Below are positions 2,636 to 35,209 of a stretch of 64,000 nucleotides of DNA, piece by piece. The stretch's first letter is position 1. The number at the start of each line of letters is the position of its first letter. The notes below the pieces were generated by a model that worked only from the letters and a program-made list of their open reading frames with translations, did not search any database and was not told the DNA's origin. Origin of the DNA: Asaia krungthepensis NRIC 0535 (GTDB lineage Bacteria > Pseudomonadota > Alphaproteobacteria > Acetobacterales > Acetobacteraceae); NCBI RefSeq assembly GCF_025995175.1, contig NZ_BAPV01000002.1:62001-126000 (forward strand), given 5' to 3'. Both the position numbers and the translations under genes were made by a program.

Positions 2636-3019
2636 ATGACAGCTCGTACCAGACCCAGACGCGCCGGCGACTGGGCGACTTTGGCTCTCGCCATCTTCAT
2701 CGTCCTGTTCGGACTGATCTTCGTTGGCGGTGGCGGCTATCTGCTCAGCCTCGGTGGCTCCGCCTATTACCTGATCTGCGGCATCGTCCTGCTGGCCTCG
2801 GGCCTCTTCATGGCCATGGGTCGCCTATTGGGTGCCTATCTTTTCCTTCTCGCCTGGGCCGGCACGCTGGTCTGGACCATTGCCGAATGCGGTTTCGACT
2901 GGTGGGGCTGGCTGCCACGCCTCTTCGGCCCGACGCTGATCGCCATTCTCGTCGTGCTCAGCCTGCCTGTCCTGCGTCGTCAGGATACGGTTCGTCCAGT
3001 TTCCCGCGGAGCCGTCTGA
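2636..3019 (+). CDS. sldB: Small membrane-anchor subunit of PQQ polyol dehydrogenase
   Basis: A 127-residue, very hydrophobic protein with four to five predicted membrane helices (roughly residues 14-37, 43-61, 64-83 and 91-113). It matches in size and character the SldB subunit of the Gluconobacter major polyol (glycerol/D-sorbitol/D-arabitol) dehydrogenase, which corresponds to the N-terminal membrane domain of one-piece PQQ glucose dehydrogenases and is needed for SldA activity and ubiquinone reduction. The stop codon overlaps the next start (TGATG), so it is translationally coupled to sldA. A near-perfect ribosome site (AAGGAGG) precedes the ATG. The split into two genes is seen directly; the enzyme name is inferred from family knowledge. 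Confidence 0.85.
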   Translation: MTARTRPRRAGDWATLALAIFIVLFGLIFVGGGGYLLSLGGSAYYLICGIVLLASGLFMAMGRLLGAYLFLLAWAGTLVWTIAECGFDWWGWLPRLFGPTLIAILVVLSLPVLRRQDTVRPVSRGAV

Positions 3020-5220
3020 TGCGTAGACCAGCCCTTCTGACCGCCACCATGCTCGGTGGCCTCCTCTCTGCCTCGGTCGCACTCGCGCAGATCCCGCCCT
3101 CGAACTCGACCCCGGGTGAAGACCATACGTCTCCTGCCGAAGCCCACAGCCAGGGCCCCGGTCGGTTCGGTGGACCGGCGCCATCGGCCCCGCAGGCACC
3201 GGGCGTGAATGCCGCCAACCTCCCGGACATCTCCGAGATCGGCATTGCCGACGTCCCCGCCGCCGTGCCGCAGATCGACAGCACCCCGGCGCGTGAAGAC
3301 TGGCCCGCCTATGGCCGCGATTCCAACCAGAGCCGCTATTCGCCCCTGGAGCAGCTGACACCGGATAATGTGGGCAAGCTCAAGCGCGCCTTCGTGTATC
3401 ATACGGGCAGCAAGCCGGGTCCGGGTCAGGCCAATAAATGGGCCGCCGAAACCACGCCGATCAAGGTGGGCAACTCGCTCTACATGTGTTCGGCCATGAA
3501 CGACATGATGCGTATCGATGCGGCCACCGGCAAGGAAATCTGGCGACATGATGCCGGGGTGAAATACCACTCCATCCCCTACACCGCCGCGTGCAAGGGC
3601 GTCACCTATTACACCTCTTCCACCGTTCCCGAGGGACAGCCCTGCCATAACCGCATCATGGAAGCCACGCTCGACATGCGCCTGATCCAGGTCGATGCCG
3701 AGACGGGCAAGCTGTGCGAGGGCTTCGGCTTTGGCGGTCAGGTCAACCTGATGCAGGGCATGGGTGAATCCGTTCCCGGCTTCGTATCCATGACAACCCC
3801 GCCCCCGGTCATCAATGGCGTCGTGGTGGTCAATCATGAAGTGCTCGACGGACAGCGTCGCTGGGCGCCCTCCGGCGTGATCCGCGGCTATGACGCGGAG
3901 AGCGGCAAGTTCGTCTGGGCCTGGGACGTGAACAATCCCGACAACCACCACCAGCCCGAACCCGGCAAGTTCTACAGCCGTGGTACGCCCAATTCCTGGG
4001 CAGCCATGACGGGCGATAACGAGCTCGGCCTTGTCTATGTCCCGACCGGCAATTCGGCCGCCGACTACTACAGCGCCATGCGCACCGACAAGGAGAACGC
4101 CGTTTCGTCCTCCATCGTCGCGATCGACGTCAAGACCGGTGAGCCGCGCTGGGTATTCCAGACCGCCCACAAGGATGTCTGGGATTACGATATCGGTTCC
4201 CAGGCCACCAAATTCGACTATCATCATGCCGATGGTACCGTGACACCTGCCCTGCTGGTGCCCACCAAGCGTGGCCAGACCTTCGTGCTCGACCGCGCGA
4301 CGGGCAAGCCCCTTCCGGAATTCCCGGTTGTCGAAAAGCCTGCTCCCGCCAGCACCATGGCAGATGATCCGCGCAGTCCGACGCAGCCCTGGTCCGACGC
4401 TTTCCCGCGCCTTGCCTTTCCTGATCTGAAGGAAAGCGACATGTGGGGCATGTCACCCATCGACCAGCTCTATTGCCGCATCATGTACCGCAAGGCCCGT
4501 TATGTCGGCGAGTTCACCCCGCCTTCCACGGACAAGCCGAATATCGAGTATCCCGGCTATAACGGTGGCAGTGACTGGGGCAGCATGGCCTATGACCCTG
4601 AATCGGGCATCGTCATCGCCAACTGGAACTCCACCCCGATGTACGATCAGCTCATCACCCGTAAAAAGGCCGATGCGCTGGGTCTGAAGCCCATCGACAA
4701 CCCCAGCTACAATCCCGCTGGCGGCGGCGCCGAAGGCAATGGCGCCCAGGCCGATACACCTTATGGCATCGTGGTGACTCCGTTCTGGAACCACTACACG
4801 GGCATGATGTGCAACAAGCCGCCCTATGGCATGATCGAGGCCATCGACATCAAGACCAAGAAGGTCCTGTGGTCGCGTCCGCTCGGTACCGCACGCGCCA
4901 ATGGCCCATGGAACATGCCGACGGGTCTGCCGCTCAATATCGGTACCCCCAATAATGGCGGCTCTGTCGTCACAAAGGGCGGGCTGGTTTTCGTGGCAGC
5001 AGCAACCGACAACCAGATCCGCGCCATCGACATCAAGACAGGCAAGGATGTCTGGTCCGATGTGCTGCCGGGTGGCGGTCAGGCCAATCCGATGACCTAT
5101 GAGGTCAACGGCAAGCAGTATGTCGCCATCATGGCCGGGGGCCATCACTTCATGATGACCCCTGTGACCGACCAGCTGGTGGTCTATGCTCTCCCCGATG
5201 AGGCCGACACCAAGCACTGA
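3019..5220 (+). CDS. sldA: PQQ-dependent polyol (glycerol/sorbitol) dehydrogenase, large subunit
   Basis: This 733-residue periplasmic quinoprotein oxidises secondary alcohol groups of polyols and passes electrons to ubiquinone. It has a signal peptide with a likely cut after Ala-Leu-Ala at residue 23, a Pro/Ser/Gly-rich linker to about residue 92, and then the eight-bladed PQQ propeller, starting with the Trp-Pro-Ala-Tyr-Gly-Arg-Asp motif typical of the glucose/quinate/polyol group. Length and the coupled upstream anchor match SldA of Gluconobacter. The start is fixed by the TGATG overlap with sldB; a longer in-frame opening at 2887 would run through sldB. Substrate cannot be set from sequence alone; an inositol or other polyol dehydrogenase of the same split design is the main alternative. 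Confidence 0.88.
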   Translation: MRRPALLTATMLGGLLSASVALAQIPPSNSTPGEDHTSPAEAHSQGPGRFGGPAPSAPQAPGVNAANLPDISEIGIADVPAAVPQIDSTPAREDWPAYGRDSNQSRYSPLEQLTPDNVGKLKRAFVYHTGSKPGPGQANKWAAETTPIKVGNSLYMCSAMNDMMRIDAATGKEIWRHDAGVKYHSIPYTAACKGVTYYTSSTVPEGQPCHNRIMEATLDMRLIQVDAETGKLCEGFGFGGQVNLMQGMGESVPGFVSMTTPPPVINGVVVVNHEVLDGQRRWAPSGVIRGYDAESGKFVWAWDVNNPDNHHQPEPGKFYSRGTPNSWAAMTGDNELGLVYVPTGNSAADYYSAMRTDKENAVSSSIVAIDVKTGEPRWVFQTAHKDVWDYDIGSQATKFDYHHADGTVTPALLVPTKRGQTFVLDRATGKPLPEFPVVEKPAPASTMADDPRSPTQPWSDAFPRLAFPDLKESDMWGMSPIDQLYCRIMYRKARYVGEFTPPSTDKPNIEYPGYNGGSDWGSMAYDPESGIVIANWNSTPMYDQLITRKKADALGLKPIDNPSYNPAGGGAEGNGAQADTPYGIVVTPFWNHYTGMMCNKPPYGMIEAIDIKTKKVLWSRPLGTARANGPWNMPTGLPLNIGTPNNGGSVVTKGGLVFVAAATDNQIRAIDIKTGKDVWSDVLPGGGQANPMTYEVNGKQYVAIMAGGHHFMMTPVTDQLVVYALPDEADTKH

Positions 5221-8446: not shown

Positions 8447-8527
8447 TAACTTGACGGGAGGGGCCGCTTGGCAACTTTCGCCGGTCCGGGCATGTTAGAG
8501 GCGTCATCACGGTTTTGGGAACGCACC

Positions 8528-9169
8528 ATGAGCCAGACATCTCTCCCCCCTGCCATCGACCCGGATTATCTGGCTCTCCTCGACTCCGACCGTATATCGG
8601 GCCGTACCCGACAGATCATGGAAGAGCGGGCCCAGACCAGCGATGCTGATTACAAGCCGCGTCATCTCTCCCCTGAGGCTCACAATGTGCTTGTCGCGCT
8701 CACATCCAGAGTCCTGCCCCAGGGTGCAGTTCTGAGCGATGCCAGCATCAACCTCGCTGCCCGTATCGATGCAAGACTGGGAACGGCAGGAGATGGCTGG
8801 CGATTTGCCTCCTTGCCTCCCGACCGGGAAGCTTACGAGCTCGCCCTGACCGGGCTGGATACACAGGCGCGCCAAAACACAGGAAAGGGCTTCGATGCTC
8901 TGGCACCCGGGGATCAGGACAGCATGATCCACACCATGGCGGAGGGCGGTCTCGCCACCGAAAAGCTTGACGCCACCCAGATGCGCGCCTGGTTTGCCGA
9001 CCTGAGGGCAGATTGTGTGCAGATCTTCATCAGCCATCCTGCCGTTCAGGCCCAGCTTGGCATCGATGCCATTTTCAACGGTGGCGACGGGTTCTTCCAG
9101 GGTTTTTCCGCCATGGGTGAGGGCGTCGAGGAAAGCTGGGAACCTGCTGCAAAAGGGATCAGACCATGA
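8528..9169 (+). CDS. Gluconate 2-dehydrogenase subunit 3-like protein
   Basis: The 213-residue product resembles the small (gamma, subunit 3) partner of membrane-bound FAD dehydrogenases such as gluconate, 2-ketogluconate and fructose dehydrogenases, a family in which this subunit stabilises and usually exports the flavoprotein through a Tat signal. Here no twin-arginine or other signal peptide is visible at the N-terminus, which is odd. The start at 8528 is preferred over 8468 because GGGAACG lies just upstream and the extra residues are not conserved-looking. It overlaps the flavoprotein gene by four bases (ATGA), so the two chains are probably made in equal amounts. No cytochrome c gene follows. 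Confidence 0.75.
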   Translation: MSQTSLPPAIDPDYLALLDSDRISGRTRQIMEERAQTSDADYKPRHLSPEAHNVLVALTSRVLPQGAVLSDASINLAARIDARLGTAGDGWRFASLPPDREAYELALTGLDTQARQNTGKGFDALAPGDQDSMIHTMAEGGLATEKLDATQMRAWFADLRADCVQIFISHPAVQAQLGIDAIFNGGDGFFQGFSAMGEGVEESWEPAAKGIRP

Positions 9170-10686
9170 AAACGCGTCGTTTCGCCGATAACGAGATCGT
9201 CGATGTCGTCGTGGTCGGCACGGGTGCCGGCGGCGCCCCCCTTCTGGCAGAACTTGCACGGTCCGGCATGAAAGTCGTGGCTCTTGAAGCCGGGCCACGC
9301 TTTGACCCGAAACAGCATACACCGGACGAGGCCACGGCTTCCGAAATCTACTGGCTGGAAGAACGCCTCTCCGGCGGCGCGAACCCCATGGCCTTTGGCG
9401 GCAATAATAGCGGCACCGGTGTGGGCGGTTCCATGCTTCATTTTGGAGCTTTCATGCCGCGTATCGACGCACGGGACATGAAGCTCCACACCGAGACAGG
9501 AAAGGGCGTGGACTGGCCGTTCGATTTCGGGACATTATTGCCCTATATCGAGCGCGTCGAACGCGAAATCGGTGTGTCAGGACCGGCATCCTATCCCTGG
9601 GATACTGAGCGCCGCTACGCCTATCCGCCGCCAGAGCGTAATGGCGCAGCCCAGGCCATGGCCCGCGGCTGCGATGCACTCGGCATTCGCAACGCCGATG
9701 GCCCCACAGCGCTGATCACGCGTGATTGGGGTGATCGCAAGGCCTGCACAGGCTGCGGCGCCTGTCATCAGGGATGCCGTAACGGGGCAAAGTCAGGGAC
9801 CGACGTCACCTATCTCCCCCTTGCCGTTTCGGCGGGCGCAGAAATCCGGCCCAATTGCTTTGTCCACGGGATCGAACGAGACAGCGCCGGCCTCGTCACA
9901 GGTGTGGTCTACCGTGAAAACGGACAGGATCGTCTGCAGCGCTGCGCCCATCTCGTGCTGGCGGCAGGCGCGGTCGAGACCGCGAGGCTCCTTCTGCACA
10001 CCGGTCTCGCCAATCGCAGCGGGCAGGTCGGGCGCAATTACATGGCTCACATCTCCACGCAGGTCTGGGGGACCTTCGACGAGATCATCCGCCCGAACAA
10101 GGGCTATCCATCACTCACCATCACCGAAGACATGATGCGCCCGGCAAACGCCGATTTTGCTGGAGGTTATCTGATTCAGTCCCTGGGAATGATGCCACTG
10201 ACCTGGGCGACCGGCGTCGCGCGCGGGCGCGGCCTGTGGGGTGATTCTCTTACAAAATACCTGCGCGGCTACAACTATATGGCGGGTCTCGGCGCCCATG
10301 GCGACTGTCTGCCCAATGACGACAATCTCGTCATCCTGTCCGATGAGAAAGGGCGGGCTGGCGTACCCAAGCCCAAAATAACCTTCAGCTACGGCCCGAA
10401 CGAGCAGGCCATGCACGAGCATATGGCCCGGACCATGACCGCCATCTGGGAAGCTGCGGGGGCCAAGGATATCTGGGCGATGGACCGCGCCGCACACATG
10501 ATCGGCACCTGCCGTATGGGCAGCGATCCCGATCATTCCGTGGTCGATCCCCATGGGCGAAGCCACGATATTGCGAATCTGTGGATCAGCGATCACTCGA
10601 TCTTTCCGAGTGCCACAGCCGCCAACCCGGCCCTTGCCATCATGGCGCTCAGCCTGCGCACCGCTGAGGCCATCAGAGGCCGCTGA
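9166..10686 (+). CDS. GMC-family FAD dehydrogenase with a ferredoxin-like cysteine cluster
   Basis: A 506-residue flavoprotein: the FAD-binding GTGAGGA motif is at about residues 18-24, a second conserved glycine-rich stretch (GTGVGGSMLHFG) follows near 84, and the C-terminal domain has the HMIGTCRMG segment and the catalytic His/Asn pair region (SDHSIFPSATAANP). Cys194, Cys197, Cys200 and Cys204 are spaced C-x2-C-x2-C-x3-C, as in ferredoxins; FAD glucose dehydrogenases of related type carry a 3Fe-4S cluster. The enzyme should oxidise a sugar, sugar acid or alcohol. It is coupled to the subunit 3-like gene, but no cytochrome c subunit is present, so the electron acceptor is unclear. Substrate cannot be assigned. 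Confidence 0.85.
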   Translation: MKTRRFADNEIVDVVVVGTGAGGAPLLAELARSGMKVVALEAGPRFDPKQHTPDEATASEIYWLEERLSGGANPMAFGGNNSGTGVGGSMLHFGAFMPRIDARDMKLHTETGKGVDWPFDFGTLLPYIERVEREIGVSGPASYPWDTERRYAYPPPERNGAAQAMARGCDALGIRNADGPTALITRDWGDRKACTGCGACHQGCRNGAKSGTDVTYLPLAVSAGAEIRPNCFVHGIERDSAGLVTGVVYRENGQDRLQRCAHLVLAAGAVETARLLLHTGLANRSGQVGRNYMAHISTQVWGTFDEIIRPNKGYPSLTITEDMMRPANADFAGGYLIQSLGMMPLTWATGVARGRGLWGDSLTKYLRGYNYMAGLGAHGDCLPNDDNLVILSDEKGRAGVPKPKITFSYGPNEQAMHEHMARTMTAIWEAAGAKDIWAMDRAAHMIGTCRMGSDPDHSVVDPHGRSHDIANLWISDHSIFPSATAANPALAIMALSLRTAEAIRGR

Positions 10687-27425: not shown

Positions 27426-28346
27426 ATGGATGATATGATCGAGGCCGTACGGCGCTATAACCGTTTCTATGTGAAGCATATCGGAGCCATCGACATCCAT
27501 TTCCTCGGCGAGGAAATCAGCATGGCCGAAGCGCGCGTCCTGCTAGAAATTGCACGTCATGAGCCGATACGTGCCTCGACCTTGCAGGAGATTCTCCAGA
27601 TCGATCGCGGTTATCTGAGCCGCATCATTACCCGTCTGGGTCGCAGGGCTCTTGTAGCGCGTGATGATGCCTCTCAGGACCGGCGGAGCCGCCCCGTGAG
27701 CCTCACGCCCGAGGGTAAGCTCTTTGTCGCCCAACTCGACAGGCGTATGAATGACGCCATACGCGCGTCTCTCAACGGGCTCGACCCTGTCGAGAGGCGC
27801 GATCTGGTTACCTCTCTCCGACAGGTTCAGAGCCTTCTGTCGCCAGGGGACAAGGCAGCCTTGTCTCTACGGGCACCCCGACCCGGGGAAATCAGCCTCA
27901 TCGCCGCGCGTCAATCGGCTCTCTATGCAGAGAGCCATGGCTGGGGGGAGAAACTCGAATGTCTGATTGCCGAGACCGTCGCGCAGTTCATGCGTCACTT
28001 TACCCCGGAGCGTGAAGCCTGCTGGGTGGCCGATCTGGGTGGCATCATGGCAGGTGCCGTTTTTCTGACTGACGAGACCCGCCTGGGCGCACCCGGAACG
28101 GCAAGGCTCCGGCTGCTCCATGTCGAGCCTTTCGCCCGACGGCAGGGCGTAGGCGATGCTCTGGTTCAGCAATGCGTCGCTTTCGCCGCCGATAGAGGCT
28201 TCGAGCGGGTCATCCTGTGGACCCATACCGTACTGGATACGGCGCGCCGCCTTTATGCCCGCAATGGATTCAGCTGTATCTCCACAGCACCTCATGACCT
28301 GTTCGGCGTCACGTTACAGGGTGAGGACTGGGAGAAGCGTCTTTAA
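27426..28346 (+). CDS. MarR-family regulator fused to a GNAT acetyltransferase domain
   Basis: A 306-residue fusion. Residues about 1-145 form a MarR winged helix (recognition helix in LQIDRGYLSRIITRLGRR, wing with the DRRSRPVSLTPEG stretch). Residues about 155-306 form a GNAT fold with the acetyl-CoA loop RRQGVGDALV and a C-terminal TARRLYARNGF motif. The ATG at 27426 has the weak purine site AGGAAC upstream. The gene faces away from the siderophore operon, with 288 bases and nested palindromes between them, so it may control that operon and itself. What it acetylates, and whether acetylation changes DNA binding, is unknown. Confidence 0.88.
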   Translation: MDDMIEAVRRYNRFYVKHIGAIDIHFLGEEISMAEARVLLEIARHEPIRASTLQEILQIDRGYLSRIITRLGRRALVARDDASQDRRSRPVSLTPEGKLFVAQLDRRMNDAIRASLNGLDPVERRDLVTSLRQVQSLLSPGDKAALSLRAPRPGEISLIAARQSALYAESHGWGEKLECLIAETVAQFMRHFTPEREACWVADLGGIMAGAVFLTDETRLGAPGTARLRLLHVEPFARRQGVGDALVQQCVAFAADRGFERVILWTHTVLDTARRLYARNGFSCISTAPHDLFGVTLQGEDWEKRL

Positions 28347-29334: not shown

Positions 29335-30858
29335 TCAACTCTGCAGCACGGTTTCCCGACCCTGGTGCGTATGGGTCTGACGCGTGCTCATCTTGCGTAT
29401 GGCGCGCGGCGTGAAGCTGCCAGCCCGGAGATTCCCCTCGATATCCTCAAGCGACAATCCAGCCGTTTCAGGCACGTAGCGATATACGAACAGAAAGGAG
29501 AGGAAATTGATCTCCGCATAGATCCACATGGTCGGCCCGATCCCCGCTGCCTGAACCAGGGTAAGTGCGGTGCCCGTCACTAGCAGATTGCTTCCCCAGA
29601 GCATGGCTGCGTGCAGCGCCGTGGCCATGCCACGCATACCCAGAGGAAAAAGTTCAGCACCCAGCAACCAACCACAGATCTGGATACCGCCTGAATTGAA
29701 CATCATGAACAGCAGCAGGAAAGCGACCGTCGCCAGAGCGCCTACCCCCTGATGGATACCCGACATGAAGCTCAGCCCGAGCCCGATCAGGCTGAGAACG
29801 GAACCGGGGATCATGATCAGCATCAGGCGTCGGCGGCCGATACGATCCACCAGAAAACACCCGGCCAGCGTGACGACCGCATAAACCAGCGCCACCCCGA
29901 CACTGGCCAGAAGAGCGGCATTCTTGCCGAAGCCCGCATCGGACAGGAAGGTCGGAGAGTAGTAGATCATCATTTCCAGCCCGCCGCACTGGGTGAAAAA
30001 GGCTACGCCAAGCGCCGCCACCAGAGCCGGACGGGCCCAGGGCTGTCGGATACCCGCCCAACCGGAATCCGCCTTGTCTGTCGATTGCCTGATCCGGTCG
30101 ATCTGGGTCAGTTCCTGGTGAATATCGAGCCGCGTGCGCCGCACGCGCTCAAGGATACGGGCTGCCGCCACAAGACCGCGTTTCTCGGCCACCCAACGCG
30201 GGCTCGCAGGCATGAACAGCATGATGACGAAAACAAGACCGGCAGGCACCGCCGCCACGCTGACCATGCGCCGCCACGACCAGACATCGTGATAATAATA
30301 CCCGACGATATTGGCCAGAACGATACCGATACCGATCGCCACATTGAACGTCGTTACCAGCGTGCCGCGATAACGACTGGGCGAGAGTTCCGAAATATAC
30401 ATCGGCACGACCTGGGTCGATCCGCCGACAGCGATACCAAGCAGGAAACGCGCGGCAATCAGGCTGCCCACGCTTGGCGCAACCGAACAGAGAATGGCTC
30501 CGGTCGCGAAGAGGGACAGGACGATCAGCACGGTTTTCTTGCGCCCGAACCGCTCGGAAGCCCAGCTGGTCATCAGCGCCCCGGCAACCGCACCAGCCAG
30601 AATGGAGGCTGTCACGATTTCCTGCTGGGTGTGGGACAAACCGAATTCGCGCGTCATGAGCAGAAGAGCGCCGGAAATCACCCCCGTATCATAACCGTAT
30701 AACCCGCCGCAGACCGCCGCCGCGAAGGACGCCATGGCGAGTATCAGCCATGAATGCCGCATGGGAGAGGCTTCGCTCGCAATCGTCTCGATGGACTCCT
30801 GTGCTCCCCTCGGTGCCCCTCCGTTCTGACGGATGGCGGAGTGGTCACGTTCATTCAT
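29335..30858 (-). CDS. MFS sugar/polyol transporter (sugar porter family)
   Basis: A 507-residue protein with 12 predicted membrane helices. Sugar-porter signatures are clear: GGLYGYDTGVISGALL in helix 1, SERFGRKK in the loop between helices 2 and 3, SPSRYRGTL after helix 4, the VDRIGRRR loop, and PETAGLSLEDIE after helix 12. It is probably a proton symporter for a hexose, pentose or polyol. It lies downstream of the galactitol/tagatose-type operon, but a 327-base gap with a hairpin separates them, so it may have its own promoter. AAGGGG lies before the ATG at 30858; a later Met at 30762 starts nearer the first helix. Confidence 0.9.
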   Translation of the reverse strand: MNERDHSAIRQNGGAPRGAQESIETIASEASPMRHSWLILAMASFAAAVCGGLYGYDTGVISGALLLMTREFGLSHTQQEIVTASILAGAVAGALMTSWASERFGRKKTVLIVLSLFATGAILCSVAPSVGSLIAARFLLGIAVGGSTQVVPMYISELSPSRYRGTLVTTFNVAIGIGIVLANIVGYYYHDVWSWRRMVSVAAVPAGLVFVIMLFMPASPRWVAEKRGLVAAARILERVRRTRLDIHQELTQIDRIRQSTDKADSGWAGIRQPWARPALVAALGVAFFTQCGGLEMMIYYSPTFLSDAGFGKNAALLASVGVALVYAVVTLAGCFLVDRIGRRRLMLIMIPGSVLSLIGLGLSFMSGIHQGVGALATVAFLLLFMMFNSGGIQICGWLLGAELFPLGMRGMATALHAAMLWGSNLLVTGTALTLVQAAGIGPTMWIYAEINFLSFLFVYRYVPETAGLSLEDIEGNLRAGSFTPRAIRKMSTRQTHTHQGRETVLQS

Positions 30859-31185: not shown

Positions 31186-31968
31186 TCAGCTCATCCAGTT
31201 ACCGCCATCGATGTTGTAGGTTTGCGAGACGATGTAATCCGCATCCTTCGAGGCGAGGAAGACGGCCAGACCGCCGATTTCATCAGGGCGGGCCATGCGC
31301 CCGAAGGGCACGGAGGCACCGACGATACGCTTCTTTTCACCCAGAGGCAGATTCTCGTACTGCGCAAAGCGACGATCCACATCGTCCCAATGCTCGTTAT
31401 CGACCACACCAGGCGCGATGGCATTGACGTTGATGCCGTGTTTGATCAGATCGAGCCCGGTGCTTTGGGTGAGAGAAATCACCGCAGCCTTGGAGGCACA
31501 ATAGATGCCAACCAATGGCTCGCCGCGGCGTCCTGCCTGCGAGGCGAAATTGATGATCTTGCCACCATGGCCCTGGGCAATCATCTGACGCGCCACGGCC
31601 TGAAGGGTGAACAGCAGCCCCTCGACATTGACGGCGAACACGCGGTGATAGCTCTCACGCGTGATCTCGACCGTAGGGGCCAGATCGAACAGCCCGGCAT
31701 TATTGACCAGAATATCGATCTGCCCATAGCGCGCGATGATTGCAGCCAGGGCCGCGTCGATGGAGTCCTGCTGCGTCACATCGAGCTTTACGCCCATATG
31801 CGCCTCACCGAGGGCAGCTGCCGCGCTGGTGGCGCCAGCCTCGTTCAGATCGCCGATCACGACCTTCGCGCCTTCCTGCGCATAGCGCTCGGCAATGGCG
31901 CGCCCGATACCGCGCGCGGCACCGGTGATCAGGGCAACACGGTTCTGCAGGGGTTTATTGGTGCTCAT
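31186..31968 (-). CDS. SDR polyol dehydrogenase (sorbitol/galactitol 2-dehydrogenase type)
   Basis: A 260-residue classical short-chain dehydrogenase: NAD-binding TGAARGIG (residues 15-22), NNAG, catalytic Ser in NFASQAG, and YCASK with catalytic Tyr and Lys. The late part (GINVNAIAPGVVDNEHWDDV and the end YNIDGGNWMS) closely follows the pattern of the Rhodobacter sorbitol/galactitol dehydrogenase (SmoS), which oxidises D-sorbitol to fructose and galactitol to tagatose. It is the last gene of a four-gene unit with a kinase and a GatZ-like protein, 27 bases after the latter, so galactitol to D-tagatose is the best guess here. Confidence 0.87.
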   Translation of the reverse strand: MSTNKPLQNRVALITGAARGIGRAIAERYAQEGAKVVIGDLNEAGATSAAAALGEAHMGVKLDVTQQDSIDAALAAIIARYGQIDILVNNAGLFDLAPTVEITRESYHRVFAVNVEGLLFTLQAVARQMIAQGHGGKIINFASQAGRRGEPLVGIYCASKAAVISLTQSTGLDLIKHGINVNAIAPGVVDNEHWDDVDRRFAQYENLPLGEKKRIVGASVPFGRMARPDEIGGLAVFLASKDADYIVSQTYNIDGGNWMS

Positions 31969-31995
31969 CTGTCATGTATCCCGTTGCCGTGAGGG

Positions 31996-33246
31996 TCACA
32001 GCGTTTCATAGCGATCCAGGACATCCCGGACCGACTGGAGCAGAAGGGTTTTCGGATCGGCGGCCAGTGCGCCTGATTTGACCCGCTCGAACAGGCGCGG
32101 CAGGTACTGGCTGATCATCGTCTCGGGCAAGGCAACCCCGTCCAGAGACTGCATGAGCGCCGTGACGGCCTTTTCGGCCTCAGATGCGGGCCAGTAATAG
32201 CGAATGCGATCGCTATAGCTGAAATGGCGCAGGATACGCTGCGTGTGCGCGTCGCCCGGATAATGACTCTGCCAGTTCCCGGGCGATTGCAGCATGACCT
32301 GCTCCATCACCGCGATCAGAGGAACAGCTTCGGGGTCAAGAAAACAGCGTATCGCATCGAGCCCATAAAGCGCTTCGCGCAGCGCAAAACTCAGCTCAGG
32401 TCCGACCTTGAGAATACGGAACCCATCCCGGCGCAACTGGGCAAGGGCCTCTCCCGGCTGGTAGTCGGTCGAATGCGCCTCAAAGACCAGTCCCGGCAGG
32501 TCACCCAGCGTCGCAACCAGCGCACGGGCAGCCTGAGGCGCATAGACCGCCACATCCTCATGGCCGAACTCGACACCGGGCTGGACCACAATCCCGATGA
32601 CCCGTGACCACGCATCGGGCAGGGCCGCCCTGAAAGCCTGTTCATGCACCTGATAGGTGTCGCGCACGGCATCGGGGGTGGTGGGTACAACATGATCGAG
32701 TGCCTCGGTCGCGCCACCGGGTGTCGGGATCTCGGTACCGATCACATAAACGGCCTGACCCGCCGCCACGCTCTCGGCCCTTCGCGCCAAGGTCACTGCA
32801 CGCTCGGCCACGACGGAGTCTGAAAGATGGGCAGGCTCGCCCTTGCACCCCATGCTGGCGTCCAGATGCAGCTTCACGAAGCCTGCTGCAGCGAAGGCCG
32901 CAATCATGTCCGAAGCTTTCTGCATCGCCTCATCGGCTGGGAGCGATTTCCACGGATTGGGGCCGAGATGATCCCCCCCCAGAATGATTTGTGCACGATC
33001 GAACCCTACACGGTCGGCAATGGCGAACACGTAATCGCGGAAATCGGCCGGGGTCATACCCGTATAGCCACCCTCCTGATTGACCTGATTGCAGGTCGCC
33101 TCGATCAGAACGAGTTGCTGGCGCGCAGCCCCGTGGAGCAAGGCCGCCTCGATCACCATTGGGTGAGCCGAACAGACCGAAACCAGAGCGTCCGTTCCGC
33201 CCTTGTCGTGGCGCGTGCGCAGGGATGTGAGAAAATCGGATGTCAT
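31996..33246 (-). CDS. GatZ/KbaZ-family protein, probable D-tagatose 6-phosphate 4-epimerase
   Basis: The 416-residue TIM-barrel protein belongs to the GatZ/KbaZ group, once described only as the chaperone-like subunit of class II tagatose-bisphosphate aldolase. Visible markers are SVCSAHP, EATCNQVNQEGGYTGM, GGDHLGP and KLHLDASM near the N-terminus, and EAHSTDYQ and KVGPELSFALREAL later. No GatY/KbaY aldolase gene is in the window. In Agrobacterium a GatZ homologue in a galactitol pathway epimerises tagatose 6-phosphate to fructose 6-phosphate, which fits this operon. The start at 33246 is set by a four-base overlap with the kinase gene; an open frame further upstream runs into the kinase. 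Confidence 0.82.
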   Translation of the reverse strand: MTSDFLTSLRTRHDKGGTDALVSVCSAHPMVIEAALLHGAARQQLVLIEATCNQVNQEGGYTGMTPADFRDYVFAIADRVGFDRAQIILGGDHLGPNPWKSLPADEAMQKASDMIAAFAAAGFVKLHLDASMGCKGEPAHLSDSVVAERAVTLARRAESVAAGQAVYVIGTEIPTPGGATEALDHVVPTTPDAVRDTYQVHEQAFRAALPDAWSRVIGIVVQPGVEFGHEDVAVYAPQAARALVATLGDLPGLVFEAHSTDYQPGEALAQLRRDGFRILKVGPELSFALREALYGLDAIRCFLDPEAVPLIAVMEQVMLQSPGNWQSHYPGDAHTQRILRHFSYSDRIRYYWPASEAEKAVTALMQSLDGVALPETMISQYLPRLFERVKSGALAADPKTLLLQSVRDVLDRYETL

Positions 33247-34235
33247 GCAGGGATTCCTTTTTTCTGCGCCGCGATCAGGGCATCGAGCTCGGCAAAGCTC
33301 GACGTCCCTTCCATCGGACCGAACACTGAAACGGCGCGCGCGCCAGAGGCACAGGCGTAAAGCAGTGAGTCCTCGCGGGTCTTGCCCGAGAGACGGCAGG
33401 TCACATAGGTCGCACCGAAACAATCTCCTGCGCCGGTGGGATCGCACTCCTCGACGGCAAAGGCATCATGATGAACCGTCTTGTCGGCACAAAAGCAGCT
33501 CGCGCCCTCATGGCCTTTCTTAAGCACAATCTCGGACACGCCCATGTCAAGAATCTCGCGGATAGCTTCTTCCTGACTCGTGCCACTGCTGAACAAAAGC
33601 AGCTCCGGCCCGCTGGGGAGGAAGATATCGCATTCCTGAAGCATCAGCTCGAGCGCCGCGCGCATATCGGGAATATCGAGCATTTCCTTGCGTATATTCG
33701 GATCGAAGGAGATCGTGCCGCCCTGCGCCTTGACCTGATGCACTGCGGTCGTCACCGCATCGATGATCGGGAAGGAAAAGAGCGACGACCCCATGATATG
33801 CAGATGGGTAGCGCGCTTGAGCAGGGCGCGCGACGTTTCATGCAGCCCCACCTGCGAACAGGCAGATTGACGGATATTATAGACAAAATCCCGGCTGCCA
33901 TCGGGGCGATACCGCACAAAGGCCGAGCCCGTCGAATAGGAATCGACGCTGAGAATGGCGGACACATCCACCCTGTCGCGCTTCAGACGCTCGATATTCA
34001 GCGTGCCGAAATCATCGCGACCGACTGCGGAGATGATTCCGCAATCGACGCCGAGACGAGCGACCTGATCGATGAAGATGGCTGGCGCGCCGGAGGGATA
34101 CGGCCCCTTGAGCGCCATGGGTTCGAGGAAACCCACCCCCTGCGTCTGGGCCATGATCTCGACCACGATCTCCCCGATCGTGACGATGCAGCGGGGTGAA
34201 TCGGCGGTCTGATCCATCAGAAAACTGGATGCCAT
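33243..34235 (-). CDS. PfkB-family sugar kinase (probable tagatose kinase)
   Basis: A 330-residue ribokinase-family enzyme. It has the N-terminal substrate loop (GPYPSGAPAIF with the following Asp), the GRDDFGT segment, and the C-terminal DPTGAGDCFGA motif with the catalytic Asp and anion hole. It should phosphorylate a ketohexose with ATP. Between a DeoR-type regulator and a GatZ-like epimerase, D-tagatose to tagatose 6-phosphate is the most likely reaction; fructokinase activity cannot be excluded. Translation is coupled to the next gene by an ATGA overlap. Confidence 0.84.
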   Translation of the reverse strand: MASSFLMDQTADSPRCIVTIGEIVVEIMAQTQGVGFLEPMALKGPYPSGAPAIFIDQVARLGVDCGIISAVGRDDFGTLNIERLKRDRVDVSAILSVDSYSTGSAFVRYRPDGSRDFVYNIRQSACSQVGLHETSRALLKRATHLHIMGSSLFSFPIIDAVTTAVHQVKAQGGTISFDPNIRKEMLDIPDMRAALELMLQECDIFLPSGPELLLFSSGTSQEEAIREILDMGVSEIVLKKGHEGASCFCADKTVHHDAFAVEECDPTGAGDCFGATYVTCRLSGKTREDSLLYACASGARAVSVFGPMEGTSSFAELDALIAAQKKGIPA

Positions 34236-34319
34236 GATCGGTAATCCATCAGGTAAGAATCGAGGAAAGAAGGCTCGGGAAAAAACGCAGACAAGCGTTG
34301 GACGAGGTATCGCGCCCCC

Positions 34320-35090
34320 TCATCCCGGCGGCGCTGGCGGCTCGGCAAAAACGGTCCAGTCCTGACACAGAACAGCGCCATCGGGCGGCATGCCTCCATG
34401 CAGGACCGACATGGTGTTGCGCCACTTCATCACGCGACCATCCTCATCGACACGGTCCAGACGGTCGGTCAGCAGATAGACCTGCTTTGCACGATACAGG
34501 GCGGTCTCGAGGCAGTTTCCCGTCTGGTCGAGACAGGTGAAGCCCGTCTTGCCGATCTGACAGGCCGAAATGACGGCCAGATCGATATCGTAAAACGACA
34601 GGGCATGATCGGCGGCCGGGCTCAGCATGGGGTAACCGAGCCGGTCATACTCCCCCCCGAGAAGCGACACGGCGGCATCGCTCGTCCGACAGGCAAGATG
34701 ATAATTCTCGAAGCTGTTGACAACGAAGCGCAGGTTCTCTGCCGTTGCGTGAACCGGCACGAAAGAGGCTGCCTGGCTATTATCCAGAAACACGCATTGC
34801 CCCGGTTTGAGCCGGAACGCCACGGCTCGGGCCAGGGCCCGCGCCTCGAACAGGGTCGGACTCTCATCGAGCGGCGCATTGACCGCGTAATCATGCGCGG
34901 GCTGTGCGCCGCCATTGGTGCGGATGACGAGATTCTGACTTTGCAAATAGGCGAGGTCGGATCGTATGGTGACCATGGAGACATCGAACTGCTCGGCCAG
35001 CGCCTCCGTACGCAGGAACCCCGCCCGCCTGACGGCATCGATAATGCCGAGACGCCGTTTCAGGGTCGCGCTGTTGACACCCATGGACAT
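34320..35090 (-). CDS. DeoR-family transcription regulator of the polyol operon
   Basis: A 256-residue DeoR/GlpR-type regulator: an N-terminal helix-turn-helix (about residues 12-60, with TEALAEQFDVSMVTIRSDL) and a C-terminal sugar-phosphate sensing domain, normally an isomerase-like fold, with the VFLDNS and FVVNSFEN-type strands. Such proteins usually repress their operon until a sugar phosphate binds; tagatose 6-phosphate or a related compound is a fair guess. It is the first gene of the unit, 84 bases before the kinase. A perfect inverted repeat lies just upstream of the start. Confidence 0.87.
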   Translation of the reverse strand: MSMGVNSATLKRRLGIIDAVRRAGFLRTEALAEQFDVSMVTIRSDLAYLQSQNLVIRTNGGAQPAHDYAVNAPLDESPTLFEARALARAVAFRLKPGQCVFLDNSQAASFVPVHATAENLRFVVNSFENYHLACRTSDAAVSLLGGEYDRLGYPMLSPAADHALSFYDIDLAVISACQIGKTGFTCLDQTGNCLETALYRAKQVYLLTDRLDRVDEDGRVMKWRNTMSVLHGGMPPDGAVLCQDWTVFAEPPAPPG

Positions 35091-35104
35091 CGAAAGAGAG
35101 CTTT

Positions 35105-35131
35105 CAAAACGAAAATACGACTTTCGTTTTG
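35105..35131. promoter_or_regulatory. Probable DeoR operator
   Basis: A perfect ten-base inverted repeat, CAAAACGAAA and TTTCGTTTTG (35105-35114 and 35122-35131), with a seven-base spacer, begins 15 bases upstream of the DeoR gene start. The A/T-rich arms contrast with the local GC content and fit an autoregulated operator. Confidence 0.68.
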
Positions 35132-35209
35132 TAAGATGGTTTTCGCTCCTCTGTCATCCCCCCAGTGTGAGGATCACAGCCTTGTGTTAGACTTCGCACA
35201 GAGAAGCGT

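Follow-up and report, generated by a model that had tools for sequence, protein, structure and literature searches.

A catabolic pathway for D-altritol and galactitol is known from Agrobacterium tumefaciens C58 (Wichelecki 2015, as cited in PMC11907403 and PMC12193009). In it, the polyol is converted to D-tagatose, a GatZ protein acts as tagatose 6-phosphate 4-epimerase, and uptake relies on ATP-binding cassette transport. In Sinorhizobium meliloti, SmoS is associated with a tagatose operon on pSymB, as the title of Kohlmeier 2019 indicates (cited in PMC10433430), and Novacetimonas hansenii SI1 carries near its sldAB1 genes a cluster with the same gene set, and the same predicted functions, as the locus described here (PMC12405394). 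We present a polyol operon of Asaia krungthepensis NRIC 0535, contained in a stretch of 64,000 nucleotides (the window), which very probably leads from galactitol or tagatose to fructose 6-phosphate through a GatZ 4-epimerase, without an aldolase. Oxidation of a polyol to D-tagatose and epimerization by GatZ would be common to Agrobacterium and Asaia; in the latter, however, a sugar porter of the major facilitator superfamily (MFS) and a SmoS-type short-chain dehydrogenase/reductase (SDR) adjoin the kinase and GatZ. With pSymB of S. meliloti (locus L124) it shares a tagatose kinase placed directly upstream of GatZ (54% and 56% identical, respectively), whereas the dehydrogenase, chromosomal in S. 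meliloti, stands side by side with them in Asaia. Finally, the gat and aga/kba clusters of Escherichia coli include GatY or KbaY, and the Asaia operon has neither. Since Agrobacterium and Sinorhizobium are known to have the pathway, and N. hansenii the gene set, the Asaia operon is a new, well-supported example; no paper on it in Asaia was among the matches listed from the open-access literature.

All genes of the operon lie on the minus strand. A DeoR-family regulator comes first (34320-35090, 256 amino acids; PF08220 at 53.3 bits and PF00455 at 50.6 bits, both above cut-off); its top NCBIfam match is AgaR, at 68.7 bits far below the cut-off of 260. It is followed after 84 nucleotides by a PfkB-family tagatose kinase (33243-34235, 330 amino acids; NCBIfam NF049991 TagKinase at 461.1 bits, cut-off 420), whose best solved relative is 3iq0. 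The D-altritol/galactitol pathway of Wichelecki (2015) in A. tumefaciens C58 reportedly has a tagatose kinase step, as proposed for Asaia. The kinase stop overlaps by 4 nucleotides the start of the GatZ/KbaZ-like gene (31996-33246, 416 amino acids), a proposed D-tagatose 6-phosphate 4-epimerase that scores 559.5 bits against PF08013 (cut-off 26.7) and 580.4 bits against NCBIfam TIGR02810 (cut-off 568.8). Its start is the ATG at 33246: the GTG frame reaching 33447 is merely the mechanically longest open reading frame. Beyond a gap of 27 nucleotides lies the SmoS-type polyol 2-dehydrogenase, an SDR (31186-31968, 260 amino acids; NCBIfam NF005472, L-iditol 2-dehydrogenase, at 423.2 bits, cut-off 338). 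These four linked genes, and the tight coupling of kinase and GatZ, had been recognized in an earlier, sequence-only reading of the window, and all four are intact open reading frames at the place it gave; it overlooked a fifth, the MFS sugar porter (29335-30858; PF00083 at 308.9 bits, TIGR00879 at 297.7 bits, cut-off 237.8). The transporter gene, found at the equivalent place in loci L032-L034 and L125, follows the SDR after 327 nucleotides. Given this gap it may have its own transcript, and its cargo is probably a polyol or ketose. No terminator-like site was seen on the minus strand within the gap, while the operon region overall holds nine such sites against 4.7 expected. The closest named relative is Asaia sp. 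W19, with a GatZ 94% identical.

We propose the following sequence of reactions. The transporter would import either a polyol, for which galactitol is the likeliest candidate, or D-tagatose, a ketose. The polyol would be oxidized by the SmoS-type dehydrogenase to what is presumably D-tagatose, which the PfkB kinase would convert to D-tagatose 6-phosphate. GatZ would then invert the configuration at carbon 4, in a retro-aldol/aldol reaction assisted by a metal, yielding D-fructose 6-phosphate for central metabolism. The operon would thus be catabolic and governed, probably through repression, by its own DeoR-family regulator.

Such a role of GatZ has direct precedent: both GatZ and KbaZ of E. 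coli were reported in 2025 to possess C4-epimerase activity, producing tagatose 6-phosphate from fructose 6-phosphate, and in that strain tagatose formation could not be recovered with fbaA, kbaY or gatY (PMC11907403). A GatZ without GatY is therefore no longer puzzling. From a docked model, the same source proposes D87, H88, E171 and H257, with C20, E44 and K279, as the relevant residues of E. coli GatZ. In our alignment the Asaia protein, about 50% identical to E. coli GatZ and KbaZ, carries all seven (D92, H93, E172 and H258, with C25, E49 and K280). Across the 87 rows of the alignment, six of these positions never vary and the lysine is missing from a single row. The AlphaFold2 model of Asaia GatZ (predicted local distance difference test score 91.9) closely matches 3txv and 2fiq, which are also its best solved relatives; 3txv comes from S. 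meliloti 1021, its printed fragment being found exactly in the pSymB locus. The fold matches that follow are class II aldolases, with tagatose 4-epimerase 9kcs at rank 13. Conservation of the active site supports a GatZ that would work by itself, as a 4-epimerase rather than as part of an aldolase.

The genome of A. krungthepensis (3.5 Mb in 64 contigs, 99.99% complete) has a single PF08013 gene. GatY/KbaY, already noted as missing from the 64 kb, is missing from the whole genome as well: the sole PF01116 gene is a class II fructose-bisphosphate aldolase, with 439.3 bits for the fructose model TIGR01520 (cut-off 347.7) and 90.9 for the tagatose model TIGR01858 (cut-off 443.55). PF00365, the PfkA-type phosphofructokinase, has no match in the genome, and nothing in it exceeds the cut-off of the 1-phosphofructokinase/LacC family (TIGR03168). 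Seven weaker matches to the latter, the best at 91.6 bits of the 216.4 needed, include the tagatose kinase itself; a weak or promiscuous kinase for tagatose 6-phosphate may exist in this genome. Two PF01791 genes code for a class I fructose-bisphosphate aldolase and a DhnA-like aldolase, and the LacD model is absent among the matches listed for either at E ≤ 1e-10. With no GatY/KbaY, PF00365 or LacC-family gene, there are therefore no visible enzymes for the aldolase route of tagatose 6-phosphate. Since this compound has no visible path to the bisphosphate, 4-epimerization is the fitting step, and Asaia offers a clear-cut natural example of a GatZ that should be obliged to function without an aldolase partner. 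The DhnA-like aldolase gene is found beside a zinc-type dehydrogenase, at positions 292933-293592 of contig C4 in the same genome (G000, locus L133).

Among 299 Acetobacteraceae genomes, 40 contain PF08013. TIGR01858 exceeds its cut-off in none of these 40 (23 have weaker class II aldolase matches), and PF00365 does so in three. The tagatose kinase is present at E ≤ 1e-90 in 43 of the 299 genomes, in 26 of them above cut-off. It co-occurs with GatZ in 29 (hypergeometric p = 6e-21), and in 24 of those the two genes are at most 1 kb apart on one contig. Across Alphaproteobacteria, PF08013 was found in 5 of 385 genomes, too few for use.

We also inspected 80 named loci with the nearest relatives of Asaia GatZ (53-94% identical), with up to 8 kb fetched on each side and several shortened by contig ends. 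The tagatose kinase is near GatZ in 41 of them and an AgaS-type isomerase in 34, with both in one locus and neither in six; some of the AgaS matches are several kb off or on the opposite strand. The kinase is always on the GatZ strand (41/41), and in 36 cases the match ends are no more than 60 nucleotides apart. When GatY, KbaY and the Asaia aldolase served as tblastn queries, none of the 80 loci gave a class II aldolase match at E ≤ 1e-3; the same search recovered the source genes and their cross-matches. A quick tree, with support from the Shimodaira-Hasegawa-like approximate likelihood ratio test alone, was built from 87 rows, none dropped: the 80 named loci, L124, L003, L021, L027, the window protein and, serving as outgroup, the GatZ and KbaZ of E. 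coli. The window GatZ falls within the Asaia set (support 100), inside an 11-row Acetobacteraceae group (support 90) of which ten rows are linked to the tagatose kinase and one is broken by a contig end. It thus groups with kinase-linked relatives, apart from the aldolase-linked E. coli pair. Partner type is clustered on the GatZ tree: the kinase changes 11 times (29.4 when shuffled) and AgaS seven times (26.7), with none of 500 shuffles as low. Together with the missing GatY/KbaY, PF00365 and LacC-family genes and the E. coli activity, the tree upholds the free-standing epimerase route put forward in the sequence-only reading. In the Asaia prunellae draft (L036; contig C29 of G259), GatZ and the kinase are each split between frames, which may reflect decay or a draft sequencing error.

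As to the substrate, the best solved relatives of the Asaia SDR are the sorbitol dehydrogenases 4e6p (probable) and 6pei, which we take to be SmoS of S. meliloti; 180 of 256 residues are identical to 4e6p (70%). In S. meliloti smoS is required for galactitol and for sorbitol (PMC10433430). All Asaia isolates grew on dulcitol, that is galactitol, and acid from dulcitol is tabled as positive for Asaia and negative for Acetobacter and Gluconobacter (PMC6022440). Both the 70% identity to 4e6p and the growth on dulcitol help the case for galactitol. The intracellular galactitol route of the sequence-only reading is supported as a pathway, and galactitol as its substrate is something that we infer. 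The dulcitol trait in Asaia is documented by two open papers; as it serves to recognize the genus, the operon would give it a concrete genetic basis.

The transporter is unevenly distributed within the genus. Its cognate form (86-100% identical) is present in four of seven genomes of the genus: the window's own, A. lannensis (G085, L034), A. bogorensis (G228, L033) and G149. A. siamensis (G192, L035), A. prunellae (G259) and G286 lack it; their top match is a paralogue, at about 60% identity, which the other four genomes have too. GatZ is wholly absent from G286, and A. siamensis retains the regulator, the kinase, GatZ and the SDR. According to PMC11449687, A. siamensis fails to acidify dulcitol, unlike A. 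bogorensis; PMC6022440 has both species acidify it. Dependence of galactitol use on the transporter fits the A. siamensis pattern, which comprises one species with a disputed phenotype. At the transporter's place A. siamensis has an 883-residue frame (L035 10277-12928), adhesin-like by eye over its first 70 residues.

Other functions can be considered for GatZ. The original naming of GatZ/KbaZ and the TIGR02810 description make it an aldolase subunit. In Asaia this subunit would need some other cellular aldolase as its partner, and tagatose 6-phosphate would be phosphorylated and then split. With GatY/KbaY lacking in the genome, the tagatose aldolase model above cut-off in none of the 40 GatZ-bearing Acetobacteraceae, and neither PF00365 nor a 1-phosphofructokinase/LacC-family kinase above cut-off, we consider this very unlikely; the role was rejected as neither the partner aldolase nor the bisphosphate-forming kinase was found in the genome. 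Still less credible is a GatZ/AgaZ that is itself the tagatose 6-phosphate kinase, a name carried by the 2fiq and 3txv entries and a proposal repeated for AgaZ in a 2025 review (PMC12118421). Apart from these two names, class II aldolases make up nearly all of the 50 fold matches shown, the tagatose 4-epimerase mentioned above is also in the list, the active-site residues agree with the proposed metal epimerase, and E. coli GatZ and KbaZ make tagatose 6-phosphate from fructose 6-phosphate (PMC11907403). On the fold, the residues and this published activity, the kinase role was rejected too. We argue that the database names of PF08013, aldolase subunit and tagatose 6-phosphate kinase alike, are misleading.

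It is possible, if rather doubtful, that the same epimerase serves an entering compound other than galactitol: D-tagatose formed periplasmically by a polyol dehydrogenase dependent on pyrroloquinoline quinone (PQQ) and then taken up, or else a further polyol, for example sorbitol or D-altritol, on which the operon's dehydrogenase would act. This overlaps with the explanation we prefer, which itself allows for tagatose. A PQQ enzyme of acetic acid bacteria reportedly oxidizes galactitol to D-tagatose (Xu 2021, as cited in PMC9171043). L125, which belongs to a genome (G226) in the Novacetimonas genus group, has the order TagK-GatZ-SDR-MFS-SldB-SldA, and its SldA shares 63% identity with the window's PQQ dehydrogenase; the names SldA and SldB in L125 rest on similarity to the window genes as interpreted here. 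SmoS serves sorbitol too (PMC10433430), and an Agrobacterium enzyme turns D-altritol into D-tagatose (PMC12193009). On the other hand, the operon has its own SmoS-type dehydrogenase beside GatZ, needless if tagatose alone enters; sorbitol would give fructose, for which no epimerase is needed; and the PQQ gene of the window is about 24 kb from the operon.

Several points weigh against galactitol breakdown through a GatZ epimerase. The action of SmoS on sorbitol is one of them, as is the conflict of PMC6022440 with PMC11449687 over acid from dulcitol in A. siamensis. One galactitol dehydrogenase of R. sphaeroides yields L-tagatose (PMC12193009), a product that would not feed the route. In N. hansenii, whose cluster also differs from that of Asaia in having the PQQ dehydrogenase genes close by, upregulation is described in glycerol medium and not with galactitol (PMC12405394). 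In vitro, fructose 6-phosphate and tagatose 6-phosphate are interconverted by E. coli FbaA (PMC5434028), so that part of the work might in principle fall to the aldolase that the cell already has. TIGR02810 still labels GatZ as a non-catalytic aldolase subunit. Eleven of the 40 GatZ genomes have no tagatose kinase at E ≤ 1e-90, and 14 kinase genomes have no GatZ. The 80 loci comprise nearest relatives alone, under-sample GatZ of the aldolase-linked kind seen in E. coli, and are therefore silent on enterobacterial GatZ. Activity, growth-mutant or expression data on the operon in Asaia were not found in the open-access literature, and we know of no enzyme activity described for A. krungthepensis.

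Within the Acetobacteraceae, GatZ also occurs in a second context. An AgaS-type isomerase accompanies it, mostly with a BadF-type kinase, in 12 of the 22 Acetobacteraceae loci among the 80 (L040, L043, L045, L051, L056, L063, L066, L067, L081, L083, L085 and L098) and in at least ten rhizobial loci. NagA is present as well in six of the 80 loci, and a NagP-like transporter in some; no class II aldolase is contained in the fetched stretch of these clusters. The isomerase gives weak model matches (137.6 bits of 580 for glucosamine-6-phosphate deaminase, 77.9 of 529.2 for agaS_fam) and the kinase none in NCBIfam at E ≤ 1e-20, its BadF type being our own interpretation; the substrates assigned to both are accordingly putative. 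For AgaZ/KbaZ the 2025 review still gives two options, a proposed tagatose 6-phosphate kinase and an aldolase subunit (PMC12118421). The simplest reading is that AgaZ in these clusters is a 4-epimerase giving fructose 6-phosphate directly. We lean slightly towards generalizing this: in Acetobacteraceae and rhizobia alike, GatZ/AgaZ would be tagatose 6-phosphate 4-epimerases in their own right, with two entry routes, one for tagatose or galactitol through the tagatose kinase, the other for amino sugars through the AgaS-type isomerase, the BadF-type kinase and, in some, NagA. If so, galactosamine would bypass the tagatose-bisphosphate step of the textbooks and exit as fructose 6-phosphate, and the disputed role of AgaZ would be settled. 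The Asaia operon thereby yields a testable prediction on amino-sugar breakdown in its relatives with AgaS-GatZ clusters. In Gluconobacter potus (L083 9224-10267), the cluster contains a gene resembling aldolases dependent on pyridoxal 5'-phosphate (GntG family at 75.1 bits, below the cut-off of 230); the frame after GatZ in Brytella acorum (L067) resembles it by eye.

Two inverted repeats upstream of the DeoR gene are candidate regulatory sites. A perfect palindrome, AAACGAAA-N7-TTTCGTTT (35107-35129, strandless), lies 16 nucleotides before the gene and may be the DeoR operator. It is the single match in the window at up to three mismatches (0.06 expected by shuffles), and across the genome its 21-base core occurs once exactly and once with a single mismatch. 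The pattern was taken from this same sequence, therefore its conservation in Asaia is the stronger evidence: the arms ACGAAA and TTTCGT are retained, with a varying spacer, in four of five other Asaia loci, and one arm is changed in A. prunellae. The second repeat, TCACA-N4-TGTGT (35174-35187, likewise strandless), is a possible further regulatory site, part of a block upstream of DeoR that is conserved in the Asaia alignment; both its arms are changed in A. siamensis. It too has a single match in the window, for a pattern picked after sight of the site. A scan of the operon region for sigma-70 promoters gave nothing above chance (one found, 2.0 expected).

Elsewhere in the window lies the PQQ-dependent membrane dehydrogenase (2636-5220, plus strand; PF01011 at 681.8 bits). 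Counting this one, the genome has three PF01011 genes; PQQ dehydrogenases are also located on contigs C4 and C1 (L114, L115). The real start of the large subunit of the window enzyme is probably at 3019, and the 127-residue frame before it, which has no Pfam match, is SldB anchor-like by place and size. A GMC oxidoreductase (8468-10686, plus strand) has a small subunit resembling gluconate 2-dehydrogenase subunit 3 directly 5' of it, and at 27426-28346 (plus strand) a MarR-type DNA-binding domain is fused to a GNAT acetyltransferase domain.

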